From a virus, in the IMG/VR virus record IMGVR_UViG_3300035698_035310, positions 124,001-188,000 of that record: a DNA stretch of 64,000 bases; one strand, 5' to 3'. Positions 48,746 to 61,015 of the stretch are shown in pieces. How positions within the stretch are numbered: the first letter of the stretch is position 1; each line of letters begins with the position of its first letter. A program made the translations under genes and the position numbers. Under the pieces are notes generated by a model, which was given only the letters and a program-made list of their open reading frames with translations, ran no database searches and had not been told where the DNA came from.

Positions 48746-49951
48746 ATGCGCCAAGAATATGCAATCGACATCGCAACCAATCCCGGCATTCATGCAATCG
48801 GCGTCATCGTCGACGTTTTGACGTTTACAAGCGACCAATATCACAACAGCGAAGACGGCGAATCGCATTTAACGGATTCACTGTGGGATAATTTGTATCG
48901 GTTCTTACAGGTTACTGATCCAGTTAATAAGTATCTCATTGGCGTAGGCTCTGAAGTGCGCGGTGGGGCTGGTGTTCCATTGCCATATGTAATGCCTGGT
49001 TTAGATCAAGTTCACGAAGGCGATACCGTTAAATGGATTATGACTAATAATCTCATGGGTGCAACCATTATCACAATGGATAAGATGGATGGCAACTCTG
49101 GACAAATAATTTATGACACCAACGGCAATCTTCAAATGGCATTTAGTCGTGGTTCAAGCACTGATGGTCAAGATTTAACACGGCATTTCAAACGCATGAA
49201 AAATCTTCCCACTATTAATGTTGGCACCGATCTTCACACCAGTATAGCGGTTCGTGTTGAAGTTGAAATGAAAGAAGAAGTGTTTAATGATTTGAATGAT
49301 CGGGGATTGATTAACAAGCGCAGTGGTGAAAAACAGAGTAATGCGAGAAATTACATCGGAGGACAAATGAATTCCACCGAAGCAACGCAAATATTTTATG
49401 ACAACGTTGATGTTATCGCATATGAGATTATGTTTCCGTTGATGGATACAAAAAAAGAAGAACTTACCGCACTTGGTCTTTATGGCTTTACGGTTGTTAA
49501 ATGGTCAGAACACATTGGTGGTACACTTGGTGATGATATGCTAACAGCCGCGCTTGAACAAGCACATAAAACAACCCCTTGGGCGATTGATGGGTTTGTT
49601 ATGATACCAAATGACCGCGCAGTTCGTGATGCAATTCCTGCACGCAAAGGAAGCAGCTTGAATCCAGTACATACTAAAAAATTCAAGGTAGGGCAGGACG
49701 ACAATGTTGCTGGAACGACAGTTATAAAAGTAGAATGGAAAGTATCTAAAGATGGATATTTAAAACCAACCGTATGCATTGATCCAGTTGATTTGGCAGG
49801 CGTTACAATATCAAAAGCAACGGGAATTAACGCTAAATATATATATGATAATAAAATTGGACCGGGTTCAAAAGTGTCAATAACACGAGCCGGTGATGTT
49901 ATACCAAGGTTATTATCTAGTTCCCCGATGCCAGAACAAAATATGGACTAG
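48746..49951 (+). CDS. ligA: NAD-dependent DNA ligase, catalytic part (LigA adenylation and OB domains)
   Basis: 401 residues. Domain Ia-like start with LTDSLWDNLYRFL (family: xSDxxYDxL). The nucleotidyl-transferase motif KxDG is MDKMDGNSG, then SRGSSTDGQDLTRHFK, VRVEVEM, ARNYIGGQMNS and IDGFVMI. The OB fold follows (VEWKVSKDGYLKPTV; SITRAGDVIPRLL). The protein stops where LigA continues into the zinc finger, HhH and BRCT domains; those last two are on the next gene. Confidence 0.88.
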   Translation: MRQEYAIDIATNPGIHAIGVIVDVLTFTSDQYHNSEDGESHLTDSLWDNLYRFLQVTDPVNKYLIGVGSEVRGGAGVPLPYVMPGLDQVHEGDTVKWIMTNNLMGATIITMDKMDGNSGQIIYDTNGNLQMAFSRGSSTDGQDLTRHFKRMKNLPTINVGTDLHTSIAVRVEVEMKEEVFNDLNDRGLINKRSGEKQSNARNYIGGQMNSTEATQIFYDNVDVIAYEIMFPLMDTKKEELTALGLYGFTVVKWSEHIGGTLGDDMLTAALEQAHKTTPWAIDGFVMIPNDRAVRDAIPARKGSSLNPVHTKKFKVGQDDNVAGTTVIKVEWKVSKDGYLKPTVCIDPVDLAGVTISKATGINAKYIYDNKIGPGSKVSITRAGDVIPRLLSSSPMPEQNMD

Positions 49952-49995: not shown

Positions 49996-50814
49996 ATGAG
50001 CACCACTAACGAATATAATGATAATTATGATAAATGGTTTCATTCACAACTCGCTGAATTTGGCGAATATGAATGGTCTAAACCCAACTCTGATGGAAAT
50101 CAAGTTGATTTGATTCTTGTTGATGTTGAAAATAGCGATGCTGCTAAAAAACAACAACTTATTGATTTTTTCTCAAAGTTGGGTGTTGAATTTCTTGCCC
50201 AAAAATCATTGATTAAATTATATGATGCAGGATTCAATATGCCGGAAGATATCATTAATGCAACCGTTTCTGATATTCAATCAATTGTTGGCGAGGCGAA
50301 TGGTCGCAAAGGAATGGCAAGCCTGAATGAAAAACTGAATCCAGTTGAACCATGGATGCTTGCAGGTGTTACCAAATATTTTGGGCGATCAATTGGTCGA
50401 AAGAAAATGAAAAAGATTTATGATGCTACTGGACATGTAAATGAAACATCAGTTTCAGAGTTAATTAAAATTGATGGCCTCGAAATGAAGAGTGCTGAAA
50501 AAATTGTTGCTGGTTATGATGAATATGCTTCCTTCCTTACCCGCATCCATGATAAGTATACCATCGCAGAGGTTCAAAATACGCCTATGGGTAGCGATTG
50601 GGAGAATCAGGTTGTGACATTCACTGGCTATCGTGATGCGGACGCACAAGCTAAAATCGAAGCACAAGGTGGGCGTATTGGTAGCAGTGTATCCAGTAAG
50701 ACTACATTGGTTGTTACGAAAGACCCTAATTCGACCAGTAGCAAAATTGTAAAAGCGAAAGATTTGGGAATTGAAGTTATCGATCCCGTAGAACTTTATT
50801 CACGACTTAACTAA
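49996..50814 (+). CDS. NAD-dependent DNA ligase, HhH-BRCT part
   Basis: 272 residues. Helix-hairpin-helix-like segments in the middle (ELIKIDGLEMKSAEKIVAGY) and a C-terminal BRCT domain: QVVTFTGYRDADAQAKIEAQ, then GGRIGSSVSSKTTLVV and KAKDLGIEVIDPVELYS. It completes the ligase by supplying DNA-binding modules. No Cys4 zinc finger is visible in either part. 44 nt separate the two genes, with AAAGGAG before this ATG. Confidence 0.8.
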   Translation: MSTTNEYNDNYDKWFHSQLAEFGEYEWSKPNSDGNQVDLILVDVENSDAAKKQQLIDFFSKLGVEFLAQKSLIKLYDAGFNMPEDIINATVSDIQSIVGEANGRKGMASLNEKLNPVEPWMLAGVTKYFGRSIGRKKMKKIYDATGHVNETSVSELIKIDGLEMKSAEKIVAGYDEYASFLTRIHDKYTIAEVQNTPMGSDWENQVVTFTGYRDADAQAKIEAQGGRIGSSVSSKTTLVVTKDPNSTSSKIVKAKDLGIEVIDPVELYSRLN

Positions 50815-51311: not shown

Positions 51312-51886
51312 TGGCTATTCCGACTAAAATATTAGATGTATTAAAACCGAGATTTTCGCTTGACGATATTAAAAAGTTGGAATATTCTAATGTATTCGAT
51401 CAACCAACAGTAAAGGATTATGCTATGATGACACGATATCACGACAATTCAGACAATTATATGAATGAAGTATTATCACATGTTGATAAGTACGCTAGAG
51501 ACGAATATCGTCAATTGGATAAAAGCGCCCCTCGGGGAAATAACTTTGGATATCAAGATCACTCATATAAATCACATACACCAAATGATATCATTTCGGC
51601 AATAGCCGAATTTATGCGTCAGCCATCAAACGTAGCGGCGTTGCTTCTCGATGAACGAAACATTGATCGTATATTAGATCACTCTTCAAGGACACGAGAC
51701 AAAATGGATAAACAGCAACGCGACAGCGAAAATAAACGAACTGAACGTGAAACAACTGAAAAATATAATGAAGCAGTTGATGTTATTGACGAGTTGGAAG
51801 AATTTGGTATAGATAAGTTAGACGAGGAACAACTAGAAATACATGATGAAATGATGGAGATTATAAAAAAATACGAATCTTCTTGA
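51311..51886 (+). CDS. hypothetical coiled-coil protein, 191 aa
   Basis: Charged and helical, with a long Glu/Lys/Arg-rich C-terminal coiled coil (about residues 125-190). Unrecognised. Its stop codon overlaps the -35 box of the promoter of the first structured RNA. Confidence 0.65.
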   Translation: MAIPTKILDVLKPRFSLDDIKKLEYSNVFDQPTVKDYAMMTRYHDNSDNYMNEVLSHVDKYARDEYRQLDKSAPRGNNFGYQDHSYKSHTPNDIISAIAEFMRQPSNVAALLLDERNIDRILDHSSRTRDKMDKQQRDSENKRTERETTEKYNEAVDVIDELEEFGIDKLDEEQLEIHDEMMEIIKKYESS

Positions 51887-51911
51887 CAACCCGAATGTAA
51901 TGGTATATATT
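51883..51911 (+). promoter_or_regulatory. sigma70-like promoter for structured RNA 1
   Basis: TTGACA 51883-51888, 17-nt spacer, TATATT 51906-51911. The predicted start (about 51918-51920) coincides with the first base of the RNA element's closing stem. Confidence 0.65.
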
Positions 51912-51919
51912 ATATAAAC

Positions 51920-51982
51920 GGTGGCTAGGACGCTTCTTCCTTCTATTTTTTTGCATAAAACCTAGAGGTTCCAATTTCCACC
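51920..51982 (+). ncRNA. tandem structured RNA element, copy 1
   Basis: 63 nt. Closing stem GGTGG (51920-51924) with CCACC (51978-51982), stacked on CTAGG (51925-51929) with CCTAG (51961-51965). Between the stems on the 3' side is AGGTTCCAATTT. The apical part starts with the pyrimidine block TTCTTCCTTCT. No known RNA family recognised. Confidence 0.65.
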
Positions 51983-51992
51983 TAAATTTTTA

Positions 51993-52020
51993 TTGACATA
52001 TTATTATTTTGTGATACTAT
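51993..52020 (+). promoter_or_regulatory. sigma70-like promoter for structured RNA 2
   Basis: TTGACA 51993-51998, 16-nt spacer, TACTAT 52015-52020. Predicted start about 52027, the first base of copy 2's closing stem. Confidence 0.65.
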
Positions 52021-52026
52021 AAGAAC

Positions 52027-52098
52027 GTGGCAGCTAGGATTTTTCTTCCTTCTTACTCAACTTGAAAATGAAACTTAGAGAACCCAATTTCTGCCCAC
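52027..52098 (+). ncRNA. tandem structured RNA element, copy 2
   Basis: 72 nt. Closing stem GTGGCAG (52027-52033) with CTGCCCAC (52091-52098, one bulged C). Inner stem CTAGG (52034-52038) with CTTAG (52074-52078). Same pyrimidine block TTCTTCCTTCT after CTAGGA plus 3 nt, and same 3' internal loop (AGAACCCAATTT). Stem bases differ from copy 1 but pair, i.e. compensatory change. Confidence 0.65.
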
Positions 52099-52104
52099 CA
52101 GATC

Positions 52105-52198
52105 GAACAGCTAGGAAATTTCTTCCTTCTCACAATGACAGAAGCCTGCCCCATGGGTGGGCTTCACTTACCAGAATTAGAGGTTTCAATTTCTGTTC
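52105..52198 (+). ncRNA. tandem structured RNA element, copy 3
   Basis: 94 nt. Closing stem GAACAG (52105-52110) with CTGTTC (52193-52198). Inner stem CTAG with TTAG (52177-52180). An extra apical hairpin GAAGCC...GGCTTC (52141-52165) is absent from copies 1 and 2. Pyrimidine block and AGGTTTCAATTT loop conserved. No own promoter, so it lies in the leader of the gene at 52231, 32 nt from its ATG. Confidence 0.65.
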
Positions 52199-52230
52199 AC
52201 TTTTAATTGTTTTAACGGAGGTCAAAAACG

Positions 52231-54438
52231 ATGAATACACTTTTTGGATTTAATAAATTACACAACAGCATCGCATTACAGAACAAGCAGTCTGTTGTTA
52301 TCGAAACTTTGTCTGGTGATATCGATGATTCACTTATTCTTGCAATCCTTACAGATATTGCACAGTTTGGCTATACGCTAGACGGTAATGTTATCAGTGC
52401 GTTGAAGACGCAATCTGAAAATACATTGGTTGAGTTCCATAAAGAACTAACTGCACAATTGTCTATTATGGTTGGTGCACACGTTACGTATCGTCCATTA
52501 TTCAAGAAATTCCCTAATGATATTCCTGACGATGCAGAATATTTCACTAAACGATTCATTGGTCATGTTACCAATTTATTTGGATTAACACCAGAAAATG
52601 TGGCACCACTTTCGTGTGGTCACGTCATTGATACTCGTTTATTCAACATGGATGATTTCGGCGCTTGCCCAATCTGTCAAATGCAGGTTGATGAAACCAC
52701 GGCTGCGACTGATCGTCCATCGTTGGATGAATCGACACCATTTAAAATCATTGGCTTGGCTACTAGCGACGATGTATACGCCATCTTCACAAACTTATTG
52801 TCGGCTAAAGCATCTATCTCTGCGGAGAATAAAGAACTAATCACCGCATTGGTTGCGGAGAGTAATGTGTTTAATTACATTCCCGATGTTATCCCAATGA
52901 AGGAAAATGTTGCGTTGATTGCTGGTTTGCTTGTTAAACACACTAATGAAGCACTTGATGTATTGGTTAAGCACGTCAACACTTCAACTGATGTATTGCG
53001 CCTTGCTGTTCAATTAAATGATGGTGATGTATCACTTGCAGAACCAACCAAGTTTAAGTTGCGCAACAAAGAACGTCGTATAATCATGGGACTTCTGGAT
53101 GCAGTTAACAAACCAGAAGAAGACATGCTACGTTATCGTATGCAATGGATTCGTTTGGCTGAAGTGTTGCACATTGGTTCAAAGCGCCATCGTTTTCCTA
53201 ATGCATTTAATGCAGTGGACAAGTTGCGTAATGACGCCAAGTCGATTGAGACATTTAACAGCAAAGTTGAAAAGAATGTCCTTGTAGCAAAGGCAACTGG
53301 TTTAGATGATGGATTAATTAAACTATTGGCAACTCGCCCCGGTGAGTTTGCAAGACGTTTGGATTTCATGTTGAGTAATATTGGCAATGTTGTTACGGTT
53401 CTTGACACATTCAAGTCTATTGTTGATAGAGTGGCTTCACCAATGTTGTTGCAAATGGCTTCGCACTTCAACACCCGAACTGAAGTTGCACCATTTCGTT
53501 ATTTCTTACCGAAAGGCAACGTTGCAAAGATGCAAATAGTTGATGACACACGCGCAGTTCTTGATCTTACGATTGTTAAATCAGTTGTTAAGATCATCAA
53601 TGACGAATTAACAAAACGCTTTTCAACAATGGAAAGCCTTGGTAATGTTTTGATTGATCCGATGCTTGAAAATTATCTTGTTCCATTGGCGCAACGTGCA
53701 GCGACTAAAAGTTTGGTTACGGTTGCGCGTGGCTCACGTATCACGTTTTCTGATAAGAACACCATTCGTTTGTTCCTTTACTGGAAAGAAAATGCCGAGG
53801 TTGGACGCACCGATGTTGACTTAAGTGCGGTTGCATATGACCAAAATTGGGACTATGTTGAACATCTTTCTTACACCAACCTATCTGGTGTTGGCAGTGT
53901 CCACTCTGGTGATATTCAATCTGCTCCCAATGGTGCATCTGAGTTCATTGACTTCAATATTAAAGAAGCAATGGAACATGGTATTCGTTATGTAACGATG
54001 AACGTTCTTTCATATAGCGGTCAAGCATTCGACCTATTTGAATCAATCGCTGGAGTTATGGGACGCGATGAACCATCAAGCGGTGAACATTATGAACCAA
54101 CTACAGTTGAGAATAAGTTTGACGTTGGCGGTAACTCACGCCACAACATTCCGTTTGTTGTTGATTTGAAGAAACGCGAAATCATTTGGACTGATTTGGC
54201 TGTGAGTGGTGGTGCATTCAATAACGTAGAACAAAGTTCAGGGGCTATTGTAATGATGTCTAAGGCGGCTGAAGCAATGGTTGACACTAAACCTACCATG
54301 ATTGATTTGTTGCAACTACACTTCGATGCACGTGCCGACAGCGTTGACTATGAGCGTCAGCCTGATAAAGAATACGATACGGTGCTTGGTGTTTCTATGG
54401 CTTCTAATGTAGATGACATCCTAGCCAATTGGTTATAA
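52231..54438 (+). CDS. RING-like and TerD-like domain protein, 735 aa
   Basis: The N-terminal part carries a partial RING-like knuckle, LSCGHVIDTRLFNMDDFGAC then PICQ (about residues 129-152). The middle 300 residues are helical repeats (LATRPGEFARRLDFMLSN). The C-terminal 180 residues are TerD-like: DVDLSAVAYD, LSYTNLSG then HSGDIQ (TerD: DLDASA, HTGDN), EFIDFNI, and a final WTDLAVSG. It resembles the MXAN_6230/SCO0854-type RING-TerD proteins of bacteria linked to Ter stress systems. GGAGG site before ATG; leader contains structured RNA copies. Confidence 0.7.
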   Translation: MNTLFGFNKLHNSIALQNKQSVVIETLSGDIDDSLILAILTDIAQFGYTLDGNVISALKTQSENTLVEFHKELTAQLSIMVGAHVTYRPLFKKFPNDIPDDAEYFTKRFIGHVTNLFGLTPENVAPLSCGHVIDTRLFNMDDFGACPICQMQVDETTAATDRPSLDESTPFKIIGLATSDDVYAIFTNLLSAKASISAENKELITALVAESNVFNYIPDVIPMKENVALIAGLLVKHTNEALDVLVKHVNTSTDVLRLAVQLNDGDVSLAEPTKFKLRNKERRIIMGLLDAVNKPEEDMLRYRMQWIRLAEVLHIGSKRHRFPNAFNAVDKLRNDAKSIETFNSKVEKNVLVAKATGLDDGLIKLLATRPGEFARRLDFMLSNIGNVVTVLDTFKSIVDRVASPMLLQMASHFNTRTEVAPFRYFLPKGNVAKMQIVDDTRAVLDLTIVKSVVKIINDELTKRFSTMESLGNVLIDPMLENYLVPLAQRAATKSLVTVARGSRITFSDKNTIRLFLYWKENAEVGRTDVDLSAVAYDQNWDYVEHLSYTNLSGVGSVHSGDIQSAPNGASEFIDFNIKEAMEHGIRYVTMNVLSYSGQAFDLFESIAGVMGRDEPSSGEHYEPTTVENKFDVGGNSRHNIPFVVDLKKREIIWTDLAVSGGAFNNVEQSSGAIVMMSKAAEAMVDTKPTMIDLLQLHFDARADSVDYERQPDKEYDTVLGVSMASNVDDILANWL

Positions 54439-56172: not shown

Positions 56173-57036
56173 ATGTCTAAAGATATTTATAACACTAAAT
56201 TTATATTCGGTCAAGATTATCATGGATTTATTTATGAATGGGTTGATAATTCTAATGGTAAAAAATATATAGGATCGCATAAAGGGTCGATTGATGATGG
56301 ATATATAGGTTCAGGAACATATTTTATTTCTGCTTATAAAAAAAGAACCCATTGTTTTAGTCGAATAATATTAGAATATATATCAAAAAATATAGATGAT
56401 ATATATACCATTGAACAAAAATGGTTAAATATGGTAAATAATATATCATCAAATGAATCATATTATAATCTATCAAATAACGCAACAGGGGGAAATTCTG
56501 AAAAAAACTACGCACGAAAAAGAAATGGTGAATTTACTGAAAAAGAAATGATTGCACATGAGCGAAAAGCCAATGGTATATTTACACCAAAAGAACTAGA
56601 GTTTCATAAACGTCGAAAAAATAGATTTTTAAATGGTGATTATACAAAAGCAGAAAAACAGTCTTATATACGATCTAAAGAGCGAAAATCAGCAGGGAAT
56701 TTTACAGATGCAGAAATTAAATATTTTAGTGAACAAAAAAAGAGAAAATCAAATGGTATATTTACACCAAAAGAAATAGAGTTTCATAATAATCAAAGTA
56801 ATCGGAAGTCGGCAGGAAATTTTACAGATGCCGAGTTAAAATGTTTAAATCTCGATAAAATAAGAAAATCAAAAGGCTTATTTACCGATGCGGAATTAAA
56901 AAATTTTAAGAACATGAAGGGAAAACGATGGCTTACCAAAGATTTTATCAATAAATTAATATCAAAAAATTTAATACAACAATATATTGATGCCGGTTGG
57001 ATATTTGGAAAATATAAAAAAATCAATCCCAACTAA
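56173..57036 (+). CDS. GIY-YIG endonuclease with seven 20-residue repeats
   Basis: 287 residues. GIY-YIG nuclease domain at residues 14-95 (HGFIYEWVDNSNGKKYIGSH, then a conserved Arg/Glu region with EQKW). Residues 114-250 are about seven copies of a 20-residue unit of form G[NIL]FT[DP][AK]E[LI]xxxxxxxxxRKSx. The unit probably reads DNA like NUMOD modules. Basic overall. Convergent with the RTX-type gene, overlapping its 3' end by 14 nt. Confidence 0.85.
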   Translation: MSKDIYNTKFIFGQDYHGFIYEWVDNSNGKKYIGSHKGSIDDGYIGSGTYFISAYKKRTHCFSRIILEYISKNIDDIYTIEQKWLNMVNNISSNESYYNLSNNATGGNSEKNYARKRNGEFTEKEMIAHERKANGIFTPKELEFHKRRKNRFLNGDYTKAEKQSYIRSKERKSAGNFTDAEIKYFSEQKKRKSNGIFTPKEIEFHNNQSNRKSAGNFTDAELKCLNLDKIRKSKGLFTDAELKNFKNMKGKRWLTKDFINKLISKNLIQQYIDAGWIFGKYKKINPN

Positions 57037-60000
57037 ATTTATCAATCCCATCAAAATCTATTTCACTTCCGTCTGATAATGTTAAACTTCCTGACATTTC
57101 TTCCGATGTTGGAAGATTGTTTGGATTGCTATCTGCCGTAAATGTTTCACCATCAACTGTTAATGCCCACCCTTGTGTGCCTTCCATATTTAGTGTATCT
57201 GTTCCCTCGCCGCCCGATATCCAATCACCGCCACCAAATCCGTCGCCGCCTTCGCCACCGAAGATAAACATATCATCGCCACCATTGCCCATTACGTGGT
57301 CATTAGCATCTGTTGCATCGTCGCTATCAAATGTATCATCTGCTTTTTTTCCTTTGTCTTTTCCATCTATTTCATTATATTCAGAACCGCCTTCACCACC
57401 CTCGCCGCCTTCACCACCATCTTTATCTTTTTTATCTTTACCTTTTCCACCTTCACCGCCTTCACCGCCATGTCCATGCCCATGTGATCCACCTTCACCG
57501 CCTTCACCACCTTCATTGCCTTCAACGTCGATAATGGTCGTAGCGGTTCCGGTTCCACCTTCACTGTCCACTATATTATATGTGAAACTATCTTCACCAG
57601 AAAATCCTTCATATGGCGTATAAGTCCATGTTCCATTTTCATTATCTATTATAATTCCATTTTCAGGATCGTCAATGCTGGTAATAGTTATAGTGTCGCC
57701 ATCTAAATCTGTATCATTAGATAGCAAATCTTCAGAAGAAAACGTTATAGAATTATCATCATCAATATCAAATTCATCATCAACACCAAGAGGTGTGGTA
57801 TTTCCTGTTTCATCTACTAACCACGTGGATGATTGTGTGTCAACAGATACAACAGATGCCGTAACAGGTGTATCTCGTTCTATTTCTACTGTTCCATCTG
57901 AATACGTTAATGTGTTAACCGAAGTGTTTGATGTTTCTGTTGTTATGTCTGTAGTAGTTGTTTCTGTAAACACTCGATTAATCACAGTTGTTTTTGTTCC
58001 ATCGTCATTTTCAACAATCGATTCATTATTTACAAATGTTATGGTTGATTCTGGTTCACTCGTTATAATATTTTCTTCTGTTTCTATGGTTGTAACAATT
58101 TCAGGATCAACATATTCGGTTTCGACATTAGTTAATGTTTCCGTTCGTGTATCTGAGGTTATTTCGCTATCAATGTTGGGTGTTCCATTTTCGACTTCAA
58201 CCGTTCCGTCTGAATATGTTATTGTGCTGACGGGAGTTATCGTTGTGGTGGTTGTGGTTTCAGTCGCATATTCATTTGTGGTTGTTGTAGTAGTATCTAT
58301 TTGTTCGCGGTTATTATCCGTATCGATAGTTGTATCACTTTCTATTATGTCGTTAGTTGTTTCCCATGTTTCATCGCCCACAACAGCATCGGTAGTGGTA
58401 ACGTATTCAGTGGTTATTGTTGGTTCTTCATATGTAGTAACAATTTCGTCCGTGGTATCAACTCTTGATTCAGTTGTTGTATCTGCTGTAATAACAGGAT
58501 CGTCCTGTTCAATTTCAACAGTTCCATCTGAATACGTAATGGTTGTTATTTGTGTGGTTGTGGTTGTGGTTGTTGTATCAGTTTCATAATTGTTTGTGGT
58601 TGTGGTCGTTGTATCTAATTGCTCACGGTTATTATCCAAATCATTTGAACGTGACACATCATCTTCGGTTGATGTTGAAATTAAGGTTTCATCGCCTACG
58701 ACAACGTTGGTTGTTACTTCTTCTGACGTAACAATTTGTGGCTCTTCGTAAACAACGTTGGTATCAGTTAACACTTCTTCTCTTGTATCGGTTGTAGGTT
58801 CAACTGTTTCAACTGGCGTTCCGTATTCTATTTCAACTGTTCCATCTGAATAAGTGATAGTGATAACGGGTGTTGTTGTTACGGTTGTAGTTGTTATTGT
58901 ATCATATGTATTTGTGGTTGTGTTGGTAGTATCTAATTGTTCGCGGTTATTATCCGTATCAATAGTGCGAACAGTTTCTGATTCTGTTTCGGTGTTAGAT
59001 AATATTTCATCGCTAACAACTACTGTTGTTTCATGCTCATAGGTTTCAACAATTTCAGGGTCTTCATTCGTAGTTATTGTTTCTGAAGTCACTTCATCGC
59101 GTGTTGATGTATCAGTGGTAGTTTCTATCGCTGGTGTGCCGTATTCTGTTTCTACAGTGCCGTCGCTGTAAGTTATGGTATGAACAGGCGTAGATGTGGT
59201 TGTGGTGGTTGTATCAACCGCATAGGTATCTGTGGTCGTTGTTGTCGTATCTACCCGTTCGTTATTATATTCTGTTTCAATAGTTGTCACTACATTTTCT
59301 TCTGATGCTGTTCCAGTTTGATATTCATCGCCAATTGTATCCACTGATTGCACATCAGTCGTGATTGTAATAACAGGCTCTTCTGTACTTGTGGATATAT
59401 CAATTTCGCGGATTTCATCACGTGTTGATGTATCAATTTGAACTGTGTTATCGGTTGGTTCTGCGCGTTCGATTTCAATAGTTCCATCGCTATATGTAAT
59501 GGTTTGAACTTCGATTGTTGTTGTTGTTTCCAATATGGGCGTTTCAAATGTATCTGTATATTCACGCGTCACAGTAACTATTTCTTGATTATTATCTAAA
59601 TCGTTAACACGCGATGATGAATCATAGAACTCTGTATTAGTTAAAGTTTCTTTGCCGTTGTGAAGGTCGGTTGAAATTTCATATGTGACAACAATGGTTG
59701 GTTCTTCATATGTGGTAACTATTTCATCGGCAATATCGGTTCTTGTTTCTGTATTTGTATTTTTTGTAATAGACGGATCGCCCTGTTCAATTTCAACTGT
59801 TCCATCTGAATAAGTGATAGTTATTACTGGTGTTATTGTGGTGGTAGTCGTTGTATCAATGGCATAGTTATTCGTGGTAGTAGTTGTTGTATCTACTTGT
59901 TCACGATTGTTATCAGTGTCTATTATACGGTCAATTTCTGTCCCGGTTTCTGATCCAATTAGAATTTCATTACCAATTTCATTTGATATTTCAGTTGTAT

Positions 60001-61015
60001 ATTCGGTTGTGATAACAGGTAGTTCTATATCAGTAGCAAATATTGCATCTCTAATCGCAACTGTTGTATCAACTGTGGTGTTGGATTCTATCACAGGGTC
60101 ACCCACAATCGTTTCAATAGTGCCATCACTATATGTAATAGTTTCGGTTGGCGTTGTTGTTTCTGTGACCGTTGAATCAATCGTTGTGGTATCTGTATAA
60201 TTACGAGTCGTTGTGACTATTTCTTGATTGTTTGCTAGATCATTTTCTTTTGAAACTACATCTTCGTATGTTGTTACAACACATGGATCATCGATAACTG
60301 TATTTGAAATAATTTCGTATGAAATTTCTCTAGACATCTCGGTCACTGGTTCTACAGCATCATCGCCACCACCACCATTGGTGCCATTATCAATAGGAAA
60401 CCCAAGATCGGGGTTAAGCACAGAATTAAGAATTGCGTCAAAGTCAATTTCAGGCATAACGTCTGTATTCGCGAGTGGATCATTTGGCACCTCGTCAACG
60501 CTTTGATTTACATCATTTATTGTAGAAAATCCGCTATCTTCCGCACGCTGCTGTTCTTCTTCGGCTACTTTTTTAAATACATCATCGCCATGCATTTCGC
60601 GTGTATCAAATATCAAACTGGCACGATCTATAGCATAATCTATTTGTTCTGATGTAAACCCATTCTCAATTAATTCATTCCTTGTGTAACCATTGACGTC
60701 AATAGATACATTATTTATATCATTAAACGCTACTATATTATTTTCAGTATTGACATATATACCCAACGATGTCTGTATTACTGTGCCTTCTGTGATTAGT
60801 GCACTTAACAATTCCGCTTCTGTTAGTTGTGAACCCATGTGAATATTTTGTGAACCAGAACCAAACACATCTTCTTTATCGCCACCATCACCTTCGTGAA
60901 GTTGTTGTACCGATGCATCAAGGTCAATTTCATCTTCGGTCTGTAAGACAGTTAAATCATCAAGTATTGAGTGATTTTCGCGAACATCGTCGTCGTCATT
61001 TGTTATTTCAGCCAT
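57023..61015 (-). CDS. giant repeat protein with cadherin-like and RTX calcium-binding C-terminus, 1330 aa
   Basis: N-terminal 200 residues are acidic and non-repetitive. About residues 230-1080 hold eight Thr/Val/Glu-rich repeats, each containing TYSDGT[VI]E. A cadherin/VCBS-like domain follows (LLSNDTDLDGDTITITSI; FSGEDSFTYNIVD), then a GGEGG linker and RTX nonapeptides (GNGGDDMFIFGG; ISGGEGTDTLNMEG). The end DGSEIDFDGIDKFSWD is typical of type I secretion targets. No signal peptide. Either a secreted adhesin or a virion fibre-like protein. Adhesin repeats this size are rare in phages. Confidence 0.85.
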   Translation of the reverse strand: MAEITNDDDDVRENHSILDDLTVLQTEDEIDLDASVQQLHEGDGGDKEDVFGSGSQNIHMGSQLTEAELLSALITEGTVIQTSLGIYVNTENNIVAFNDINNVSIDVNGYTRNELIENGFTSEQIDYAIDRASLIFDTREMHGDDVFKKVAEEEQQRAEDSGFSTINDVNQSVDEVPNDPLANTDVMPEIDFDAILNSVLNPDLGFPIDNGTNGGGGDDAVEPVTEMSREISYEIISNTVIDDPCVVTTYEDVVSKENDLANNQEIVTTTRNYTDTTTIDSTVTETTTPTETITYSDGTIETIVGDPVIESNTTVDTTVAIRDAIFATDIELPVITTEYTTEISNEIGNEILIGSETGTEIDRIIDTDNNREQVDTTTTTTNNYAIDTTTTTTITPVITITYSDGTVEIEQGDPSITKNTNTETRTDIADEIVTTYEEPTIVVTYEISTDLHNGKETLTNTEFYDSSSRVNDLDNNQEIVTVTREYTDTFETPILETTTTIEVQTITYSDGTIEIERAEPTDNTVQIDTSTRDEIREIDISTSTEEPVITITTDVQSVDTIGDEYQTGTASEENVVTTIETEYNNERVDTTTTTTDTYAVDTTTTTTSTPVHTITYSDGTVETEYGTPAIETTTDTSTRDEVTSETITTNEDPEIVETYEHETTVVVSDEILSNTETESETVRTIDTDNNREQLDTTNTTTNTYDTITTTTVTTTPVITITYSDGTVEIEYGTPVETVEPTTDTREEVLTDTNVVYEEPQIVTSEEVTTNVVVGDETLISTSTEDDVSRSNDLDNNREQLDTTTTTTNNYETDTTTTTTTTQITTITYSDGTVEIEQDDPVITADTTTESRVDTTDEIVTTYEEPTITTEYVTTTDAVVGDETWETTNDIIESDTTIDTDNNREQIDTTTTTTNEYATETTTTTTITPVSTITYSDGTVEVENGTPNIDSEITSDTRTETLTNVETEYVDPEIVTTIETEENIITSEPESTITFVNNESIVENDDGTKTTVINRVFTETTTTDITTETSNTSVNTLTYSDGTVEIERDTPVTASVVSVDTQSSTWLVDETGNTTPLGVDDEFDIDDDNSITFSSEDLLSNDTDLDGDTITITSIDDPENGIIIDNENGTWTYTPYEGFSGEDSFTYNIVDSEGGTGTATTIIDVEGNEGGEGGEGGSHGHGHGGEGGEGGKGKDKKDKDGGEGGEGGEGGSEYNEIDGKDKGKKADDTFDSDDATDANDHVMGNGGDDMFIFGGEGGDGFGGGDWISGGEGTDTLNMEGTQGWALTVDGETFTADSNPNNLPTSEEMSGSLTLSDGSEIDFDGIDKFSWD

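Follow-up and report, generated by a model that had tools for sequence, protein, structure and literature searches.

A family of small structured RNAs encoded beside TerD-domain protein genes in phages and prokaryotes

What are the three repeated elements that stand before the gene of a large TerD-domain protein in the virus record IMGVR_UViG_3300035698_035310 of IMG/VR? The stretch analysed here (the window) comprises 64 kb out of this 359-kb record. Between a gene of 191 amino acids (aa) and a 735-aa gene starting at 52231, a first-pass annotation had described three tandem copies of an undescribed structured RNA and offered three readings for them: anti-Shine-Dalgarno (anti-SD) sponges, a multi-copy regulatory leader, or Y-RNA-like partners of the downstream protein. 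The last one is strongly supported by the co-occurrence of RNA and protein, by the terminal-stem architecture, by a tRNA mimic of the YrlA type in some members and by an adjoining rtcR gene in two loci. The elements are probably copies of a small noncoding RNA that would form a ribonucleoprotein particle (RNP) with the adjoining helical/TerD (RING) protein, acting in RNA damage response or quality control.

The sequence CTAGGA-N3-TTCTTCCTTCT was found exactly three times in the window, always on the + strand (51925, 52034 and 52111), against 0.05 matches expected in shuffled sequences even tolerating three mismatches; the rest of the 359-kb record holds no further copy. The 3' block announced as TTAGAG-x-CAATTTC is also present, its exact form being rather YTAGAG-N4-CAATTTC. 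The proposed closing stems (P1) are real: GGTGG/CCACC in copy 1 (51920-51982, running P1, CTA, second stem P2, TCCTTCTA, P2', ATTT), GTGGCAG/CTGCCCAC, with one bulge, in copy 2 (52027-52097) and GAACAG/CTGTTC in copy 3 (52105-52198), all on the + strand. Sigma-70-like promoters on this strand precede the first two copies at the distances that had been given, TTGACA-17-TATATT for copy 1 (51883-51911, 11 of 12 consensus positions) and TTGACA-16-TACTAT, with a TG, for copy 2 (51993-52020, 10 of 12), P1 beginning some 7-9 nucleotides (nt) past the respective -10 box. Promoter-like sites were sought across the whole element region (four observed, 1.6 expected) and none belongs to copy 3. As annotated, this copy lies within the mRNA leader of the RING-TerD-like gene, whose SD sequence (GGAGG, 52217-52221, + strand) falls outside the element, and it carries an extra apical hairpin (52141-52165, + strand, RNAfold) that corresponds to the variable insert of the family described below. 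RNAfold gave one common layout for all three copies, and each matches the geometry of the family to the nucleotide. Compared with shuffled sequences, the folding is significant for copy 3 (z -5.4) and not for copies 1 (z -1.6) and 2 (z -0.8); since three copies alone are insufficient, the proof of structure was drawn from relatives.

The exact window motif had no match in viral contigs because CTAGGA is peculiar to the window phage (the family consensus is GGCTA), and the family was reached via the protein instead. A query with the single protein retrieved no relatives from viral contigs, and a profile of ten diverse members was too divergent for searching; the profile of a pair (A2) was used, and recovered 9 viral and 35 cellular loci. 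Distant relatives of the 735-aa protein are found in the phages XacN1, RcXuper, RpAliso, SCTP-2, Weasels2, LpeD and WXIN and in two metagenomic phages. The cellular loci belong to Bacillota (Paenibacillus, Brevibacillus, Priestia, Neobacillus), Proteobacteria and Actinomycetota (Lysobacter, Pseudomonas, Variovorax, Streptomyces), and to Pirellula/Planctomycetota, Candidatus Obscuribacter, Lentisphaerales, Verrucomicrobiales and an archaeal metagenome-assembled genome (MAG). The RNA adjoins nearly every examined gene of the protein family, in Bacillota, Actinomycetota, Proteobacteria, Planctomycetota, Verrucomicrobiota, Obscuribacter MAGs, the archaeal MAG and unrelated phages alike. Upstream of the relatives there are three elements in XacN1, five in WXIN, two in LpeD and several each in RcXuper, RpAliso and the gut phage MT835874. 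Most of these genes have the 8-mer WTMCTTCT no more than 300 nt upstream; in phages L014-L021 it occurs four to seven times in an array just behind the gene. Some of the arrays have other small RNAs for neighbours: phage transfer-messenger RNAs lie directly upstream in L007:1309-1725, L009:1253-1474 and L004:808-1108, and are permuted in RcXuper and RpAliso, while elements 1 and 2 of XacN1 are separated by an odd sequence resembling a tRNA (L006, about 2076-2150), which ends in GCACCA, is unusual in its T-loop region and has a promoter-like site of its own.

The layout common to the family is P1 - CUA - 10-nt P2 arm - UCCUUCUA - insert - 10-nt P2' arm - NUUU - P1', with a variable terminal stem P1, a 10-bp P2 stem and an apical insert of 10 to about 200 nt. 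Conservation is highest at GG-CUA, C-UUCCUUCU and UUU-CC, the GGCUA/UUUCC internal loop being as invariant as the core UUCCUUCU. Elements were selected by a sequence anchor plus the pairing of P1, which yielded 79 on the forward strand and 0 on the reverse strand; P2 was not a criterion, and 50 of the 79 have 9 or 10 of its 10 possible pairs. In 52 distinct elements, 92.8% of the cells of 16 pairs were paired (62.8% when shuffled), both sides had changed in 13 of the 16 pairs (252 cells, 72 in shuffles), and the covariation score was 0.781 against 0.195 for shuffles (0/500) and 0.11-0.21 for slid partners, figures to be read knowing that P1 was used in the selection, that manual curation removed near-duplicate loci and a few obvious mis-picks and that the sequences are not phylogenetically independent. 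The covariation of P2 is free of the selection caveat because this stem was not used for picking. The stem covariation seen by the first-pass annotation within the window is thus upheld with more sequences. The core itself varies, being UUACUUCU in L014-L021, LpeD and RcXuper, and CUUUCAU in WXIN, where five tandem divergent elements (L010:2045-2465, GCAGGCTC...CTTTCAT...TTTCCCTGC) have strong folds (z down to -4.4). These observations taken together establish, in our judgement, that the family exists, leaving hardly any doubt. No family of Rfam 15 reached its gathering score over the window elements, scans of the relatives gave no family either, and no description was met in the searchable literature (subscription papers and preprints fall outside it). 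As far as these searches reach, the RNA is undescribed, as had been claimed, and the family is wider than the window alone could show.

A first covariance model without loop columns (R1) was insensitive to the longer inserts and was replaced by R2, in which the loops are trimmed or padded to 17 columns. The training set of R2 included the window copies, so the values that these obtain in the window (E 1.9e-11, 1.8e-10 and 5.6e-10 for copies 1 to 3) are those of training sequences. The search with such a model, which had been suggested as a check, recovers the family in Bacilli and Actinomycetes that encode the protein. R2 and the protein profile NF041916 were run on identical genome samples. 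Among 251 genomes of Bacilli, some from species close to the training set of R2, the protein was found in 26 and the RNA in exactly those 26 and no others. The test on Actinomycetes is nearly independent, with one Streptomyces element in training: here 20 of 198 genomes have the protein and 16 the RNA, all of them among those 20 and with the RNA adjoining the gene. These loci include full-length RING_SCO0854 genes, and in the full-length members of Streptomyces type the RNA lies directly upstream. Gammaproteobacteria (protein in two genomes, RNA in one) provided too few cases for such a test. We regard the association of RNA and protein as established too, with little room for doubt.

The presumed partner of the RNA, the 735-aa protein (52231-54438, + strand; phrog_33734), is by its profile matches a relative of NF041916 (RING_SCO0854) and not an equivalog, its 497.9 bits being under the 600-bit equivalog cut-off; NF041916 is matched by 27 of 27 aligned proteins. 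The Prok-RING_4 finger identified with Pfam (residues 127-158; 52609-52704, + strand) is an insertion present in few members only, and most bacterial relatives are RING-less. The AlphaFold model (mean predicted local distance difference test 82) has a helical body (about residues 179-465) and a C-terminal TerD fold (about residues 503-657; 53737-54201, + strand), for which Foldseek matched the TerD structures 3ibz, 2kxt and 2qz7 (E 9e-6 to 5e-4, probability 1.0). This domain bears the HSGD motif, whose residues H558, S559, G560 and D561 are invariant; many invariant arginines (R257, R375, R416, R500, R513) would fit nucleic-acid binding. Homology to Ro60/TROVE was considered and rejected, as sequence, profile and fold searches were all without signal: no Pfam match to TROVE (PF05731) at E<=1 in 27 members, a probability of 0.1% with hhalign against three TROVE proteins, and no Ro60 among the 50 best Foldseek matches in the PDB. 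In the literature searched, the family NF041916 is not named and neither an RNA partner for it nor an RNA beside TerD genes is described.

YrlA (Rfam RF02553) is a bacterial Y RNA that occurs with Rsr/Ro60 in the rsr-yrlBA-rtcBA operon. The inserts of loci L052, L007 and L009 match RF02553 solely at model positions 23-86 of 114, with E from 2.8e-8 (first copy of L052, positions 23-85) to 4e-4, two copies matching in L009 and all remaining under the 69-bit gathering score. Their folds correspond to a permuted tRNA, consisting of a T arm, an acceptor stem closed by a loop and a D arm. The terminal stem of the YrlA model, which binds Ro60/Rsr, is not matched by elements of the family. Chimeras of tRNA and element are also found: the 126-nt tRNA-like genes at L014:6746-6871 and L018:6745-6870 carry, in the place expected for the anticodon arm, the stretch GGCUAU...UUACUUCU. 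The partial YrlA matches together with these chimeras imply that YrlA and the TerD-linked family would share an effector module on different protein-docking stems. The TROVE genes of the same genomes lie elsewhere, and the neighbour of the RNA is the TerD protein gene. To judge from these sequences, the TerD-linked RNAs seem to work like Y RNAs without belonging to that family, which Ro60 and the YrlA stem define.

The genes around the system are suggestive as well. The activator of the Ro60/Y-RNA repair operon is rtcR, and this gene divergently adjoins the TerD-family gene in Variovorax WDL1 and the system in L052, where it was confirmed by Pfam. An RNA ligase in Vibrio, an RNB-type ribonuclease in Streptomyces, and a CCA-type tRNA nucleotidyltransferase and tRNA clusters in phages lie near the system and point the same way, to RNA repair, none being decisive alone. 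In Deinococcus, a Y RNA tethers Rsr to PNPase (Chen et al. 2013, as reported by a citing paper).

Whether the RNA acts in cis or in trans can be glimpsed from the position of its copies. These lie upstream of the gene in most Bacillota and many other groups, as does copy 3 in its leader in the window, an arrangement that would suit a purely cis autoregulatory leader in which the protein binds its own mRNA in the style of ribosomal-protein leaders and multiple copies act as cooperative sites. It is also favoured by 12 Paenibacillus loci (L022, L023, L028, L030, L032, L033, L037, L038, L040, L042, L043, L048), in which the last copy has the start codon on one side and AGGAGGC, which is conserved, on the other, and stands exactly between them. 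With P1 closed, this SD sequence would come to a usable distance, so that copy probably doubles as a translation-control element of the protein. The folded element bridging SD and AUG in these loci would be a possible structural ribosome-binding site. Elsewhere, however, the copies follow the gene, as in Variovorax, Vibrio, Niallia, L005, the L014-L021 phages and the RING-less paralogues of Streptomyces, the two tandem copies of Variovorax having a -10 box and an intrinsic terminator of their own (judged by eye). In Brevibacillus (L025) a standalone copy lies 1.8 kb off between two unrelated genes, and in L069 copy and protein gene are on different contigs, P1 of this copy being immediately preceded by a -10 box (TATACT) and P1' directly followed by a U-tract. 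The regulatory leader of the first-pass annotation thus probably holds for some loci and fails as a general account: a leader-only role is excluded for the family, a purely cis-acting explanation is unlikely, and trans-acting partners of the protein are the natural and likely reading of the RNAs.

The other alternatives are weakened by the same features. Anti-SD sponges would pair through UUCCUUCU with SD regions, like the alphaproteobacterial CUCCUCCC small RNAs, and the core UCCUUCU is indeed unpaired in the consensus and complementary to AGAAGGA. However, the variants UUACUUCU, found in many phages, and CUUUCAU are not SD-complementary, the complementarity to GGAGG being lost while element, structure and gene link persist; the GGCUA/UUUCC loop is equally invariant and the tie to one protein family strict. 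This proposal had to be abandoned as extremely improbable. An RNA-based toxin-antitoxin or defence module, in which, as in type III systems, the protein is neutralised by the tandem RNAs and the module serves the phage against its rivals, would explain tandem structured RNAs adjoining a protein gene on plasmids and phages, and TerD domains have been linked to phage resistance (PMC7824862). Yet no nuclease or toxin fold was found in the protein with AlphaFold, Foldseek and Pfam, PADLOC gave no match, the RNA is frequently in single copy and at times distant, and tRNA mimics are unexpected in an antitoxin, all of which makes such a module improbable. A metabolite riboswitch controlling the downstream gene is also brought to mind by the two stems with their conserved internal loop and core, placed before genes of a single family. 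The variable position, the standalone copies, the presence of up to 5-7 copies, the lack of a recognised expression platform and the fact that in 26 of 26 genomes the RNA goes with one and the same protein family make this very doubtful.

We return to an RNA that is the partner of the TerD protein. The protein would bind the UUCCUUCU strand and the internal loop GGCUA/UUUCC, which is invariant, while the apical part, which varies from a short loop to a hairpin or a tRNA mimic, may recruit or mimic other partners, as the effector end of Y RNAs does. The particle may act like Ro60-Y RNA in the response to RNA damage or in quality control, with the TerD domain as its possible ligand or Ca2+ sensor; such a role in the response to damaged RNA, probably tRNA, is our best guess, with even chances of being right. 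In the window phage, copies 1 and 2 would be separate transcripts, each started at its own promoter. Copy 3, as part of the mRNA leader, would serve unbound protein as a gauge of how much RNA is available. The benefit to the phage might lie in protected or repaired tRNAs, or in a curb on host RNA decay. In a broader form, towards which we lean slightly, this would be a second, TROVE-independent class of Y-RNA-like RNP, spread across many prokaryotic phyla and several unrelated phage groups, with one conserved docking stem and apical modules that can be swapped, among them the tRNA mimic that YrlA also has; when tRNAs are broken, it would be able to replace Ro60-Y RNA in the response controlled by RtcR. 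Several points weigh against these ideas. Ro60 homology is not usable as an argument, since the protein lacks TROVE signal. The three copies in the window have no tRNA mimic and no RF02553 match, and RtcB was not found in the virus record. The adjacency of rtcR concerns two loci only, and the sigma-54-like sites preceding the system in both are only single consensus matches, of which 0.2-0.3 are expected by chance per locus. R2 had no match in 4 of the 20 protein-bearing Actinomycetes, in one of the two Gammaproteobacteria and in phage SCTP-2, nor did it detect the WXIN elements.

Other genes of the window deserve mention. Just upstream of the element cluster, a CreA-family protein is encoded by the phage (50829-51311; PF05981, E 1e-28), preceded by a NAD-dependent DNA ligase split over adjacent genes (48746-49951, adenylation/OB, and 49996-50814, HHH/BRCT). 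The - strand (57023-61015) encodes a repetitive, Thr-rich protein of 1330 aa that has a Cadherin_5 domain and a Gly-rich tail and may be an adhesin or tail-associated.

A widespread protein family that has had just a domain name would acquire an RNA partner and a testable role, and TerD proteins, whose function is an old puzzle, would be connected with small RNAs and with the repair of RNA. The tRNA mimic that forms a module of bacterial Y RNAs appears as a portable part, carried also by RNAs with a different protein-docking stem. Giant phages having their own sets of these RNAs suggest that the RNP matters in the contest over tRNAs and RNA decay during infection.

Among known systems, tandem or leader RNAs beside a protein gene are also typical of type III toxin-antitoxin RNAs and ribosomal-protein leaders, from which the present RNAs differ by the absence of a toxin fold, by position-independent and standalone copies and by tRNA-mimic modules. 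On the protein side, the resemblance is to the MXAN_6230/SCO0854 family RING domain-containing proteins of NF041916, matched by all the aligned members, although the window protein falls short of the equivalogs and most bacterial relatives have no RING. A third comparison is with YrlA and Rsr. As in that system, a small RNA is encoded beside its presumed partner, its 5' and 3' ends form the protein-side stem, the other end is in L052, L007 and L009 a circularly permuted tRNA mimic (RF02553 23-86), and rtcR divergently adjoins the locus in Variovorax and L052. Unlike YrlA, the protein-binding stem is unrelated in sequence and many copies, including those of the window, carry no tRNA mimic; unlike Rsr/Ro60, the partner has a helical and TerD architecture in place of the TROVE domain.
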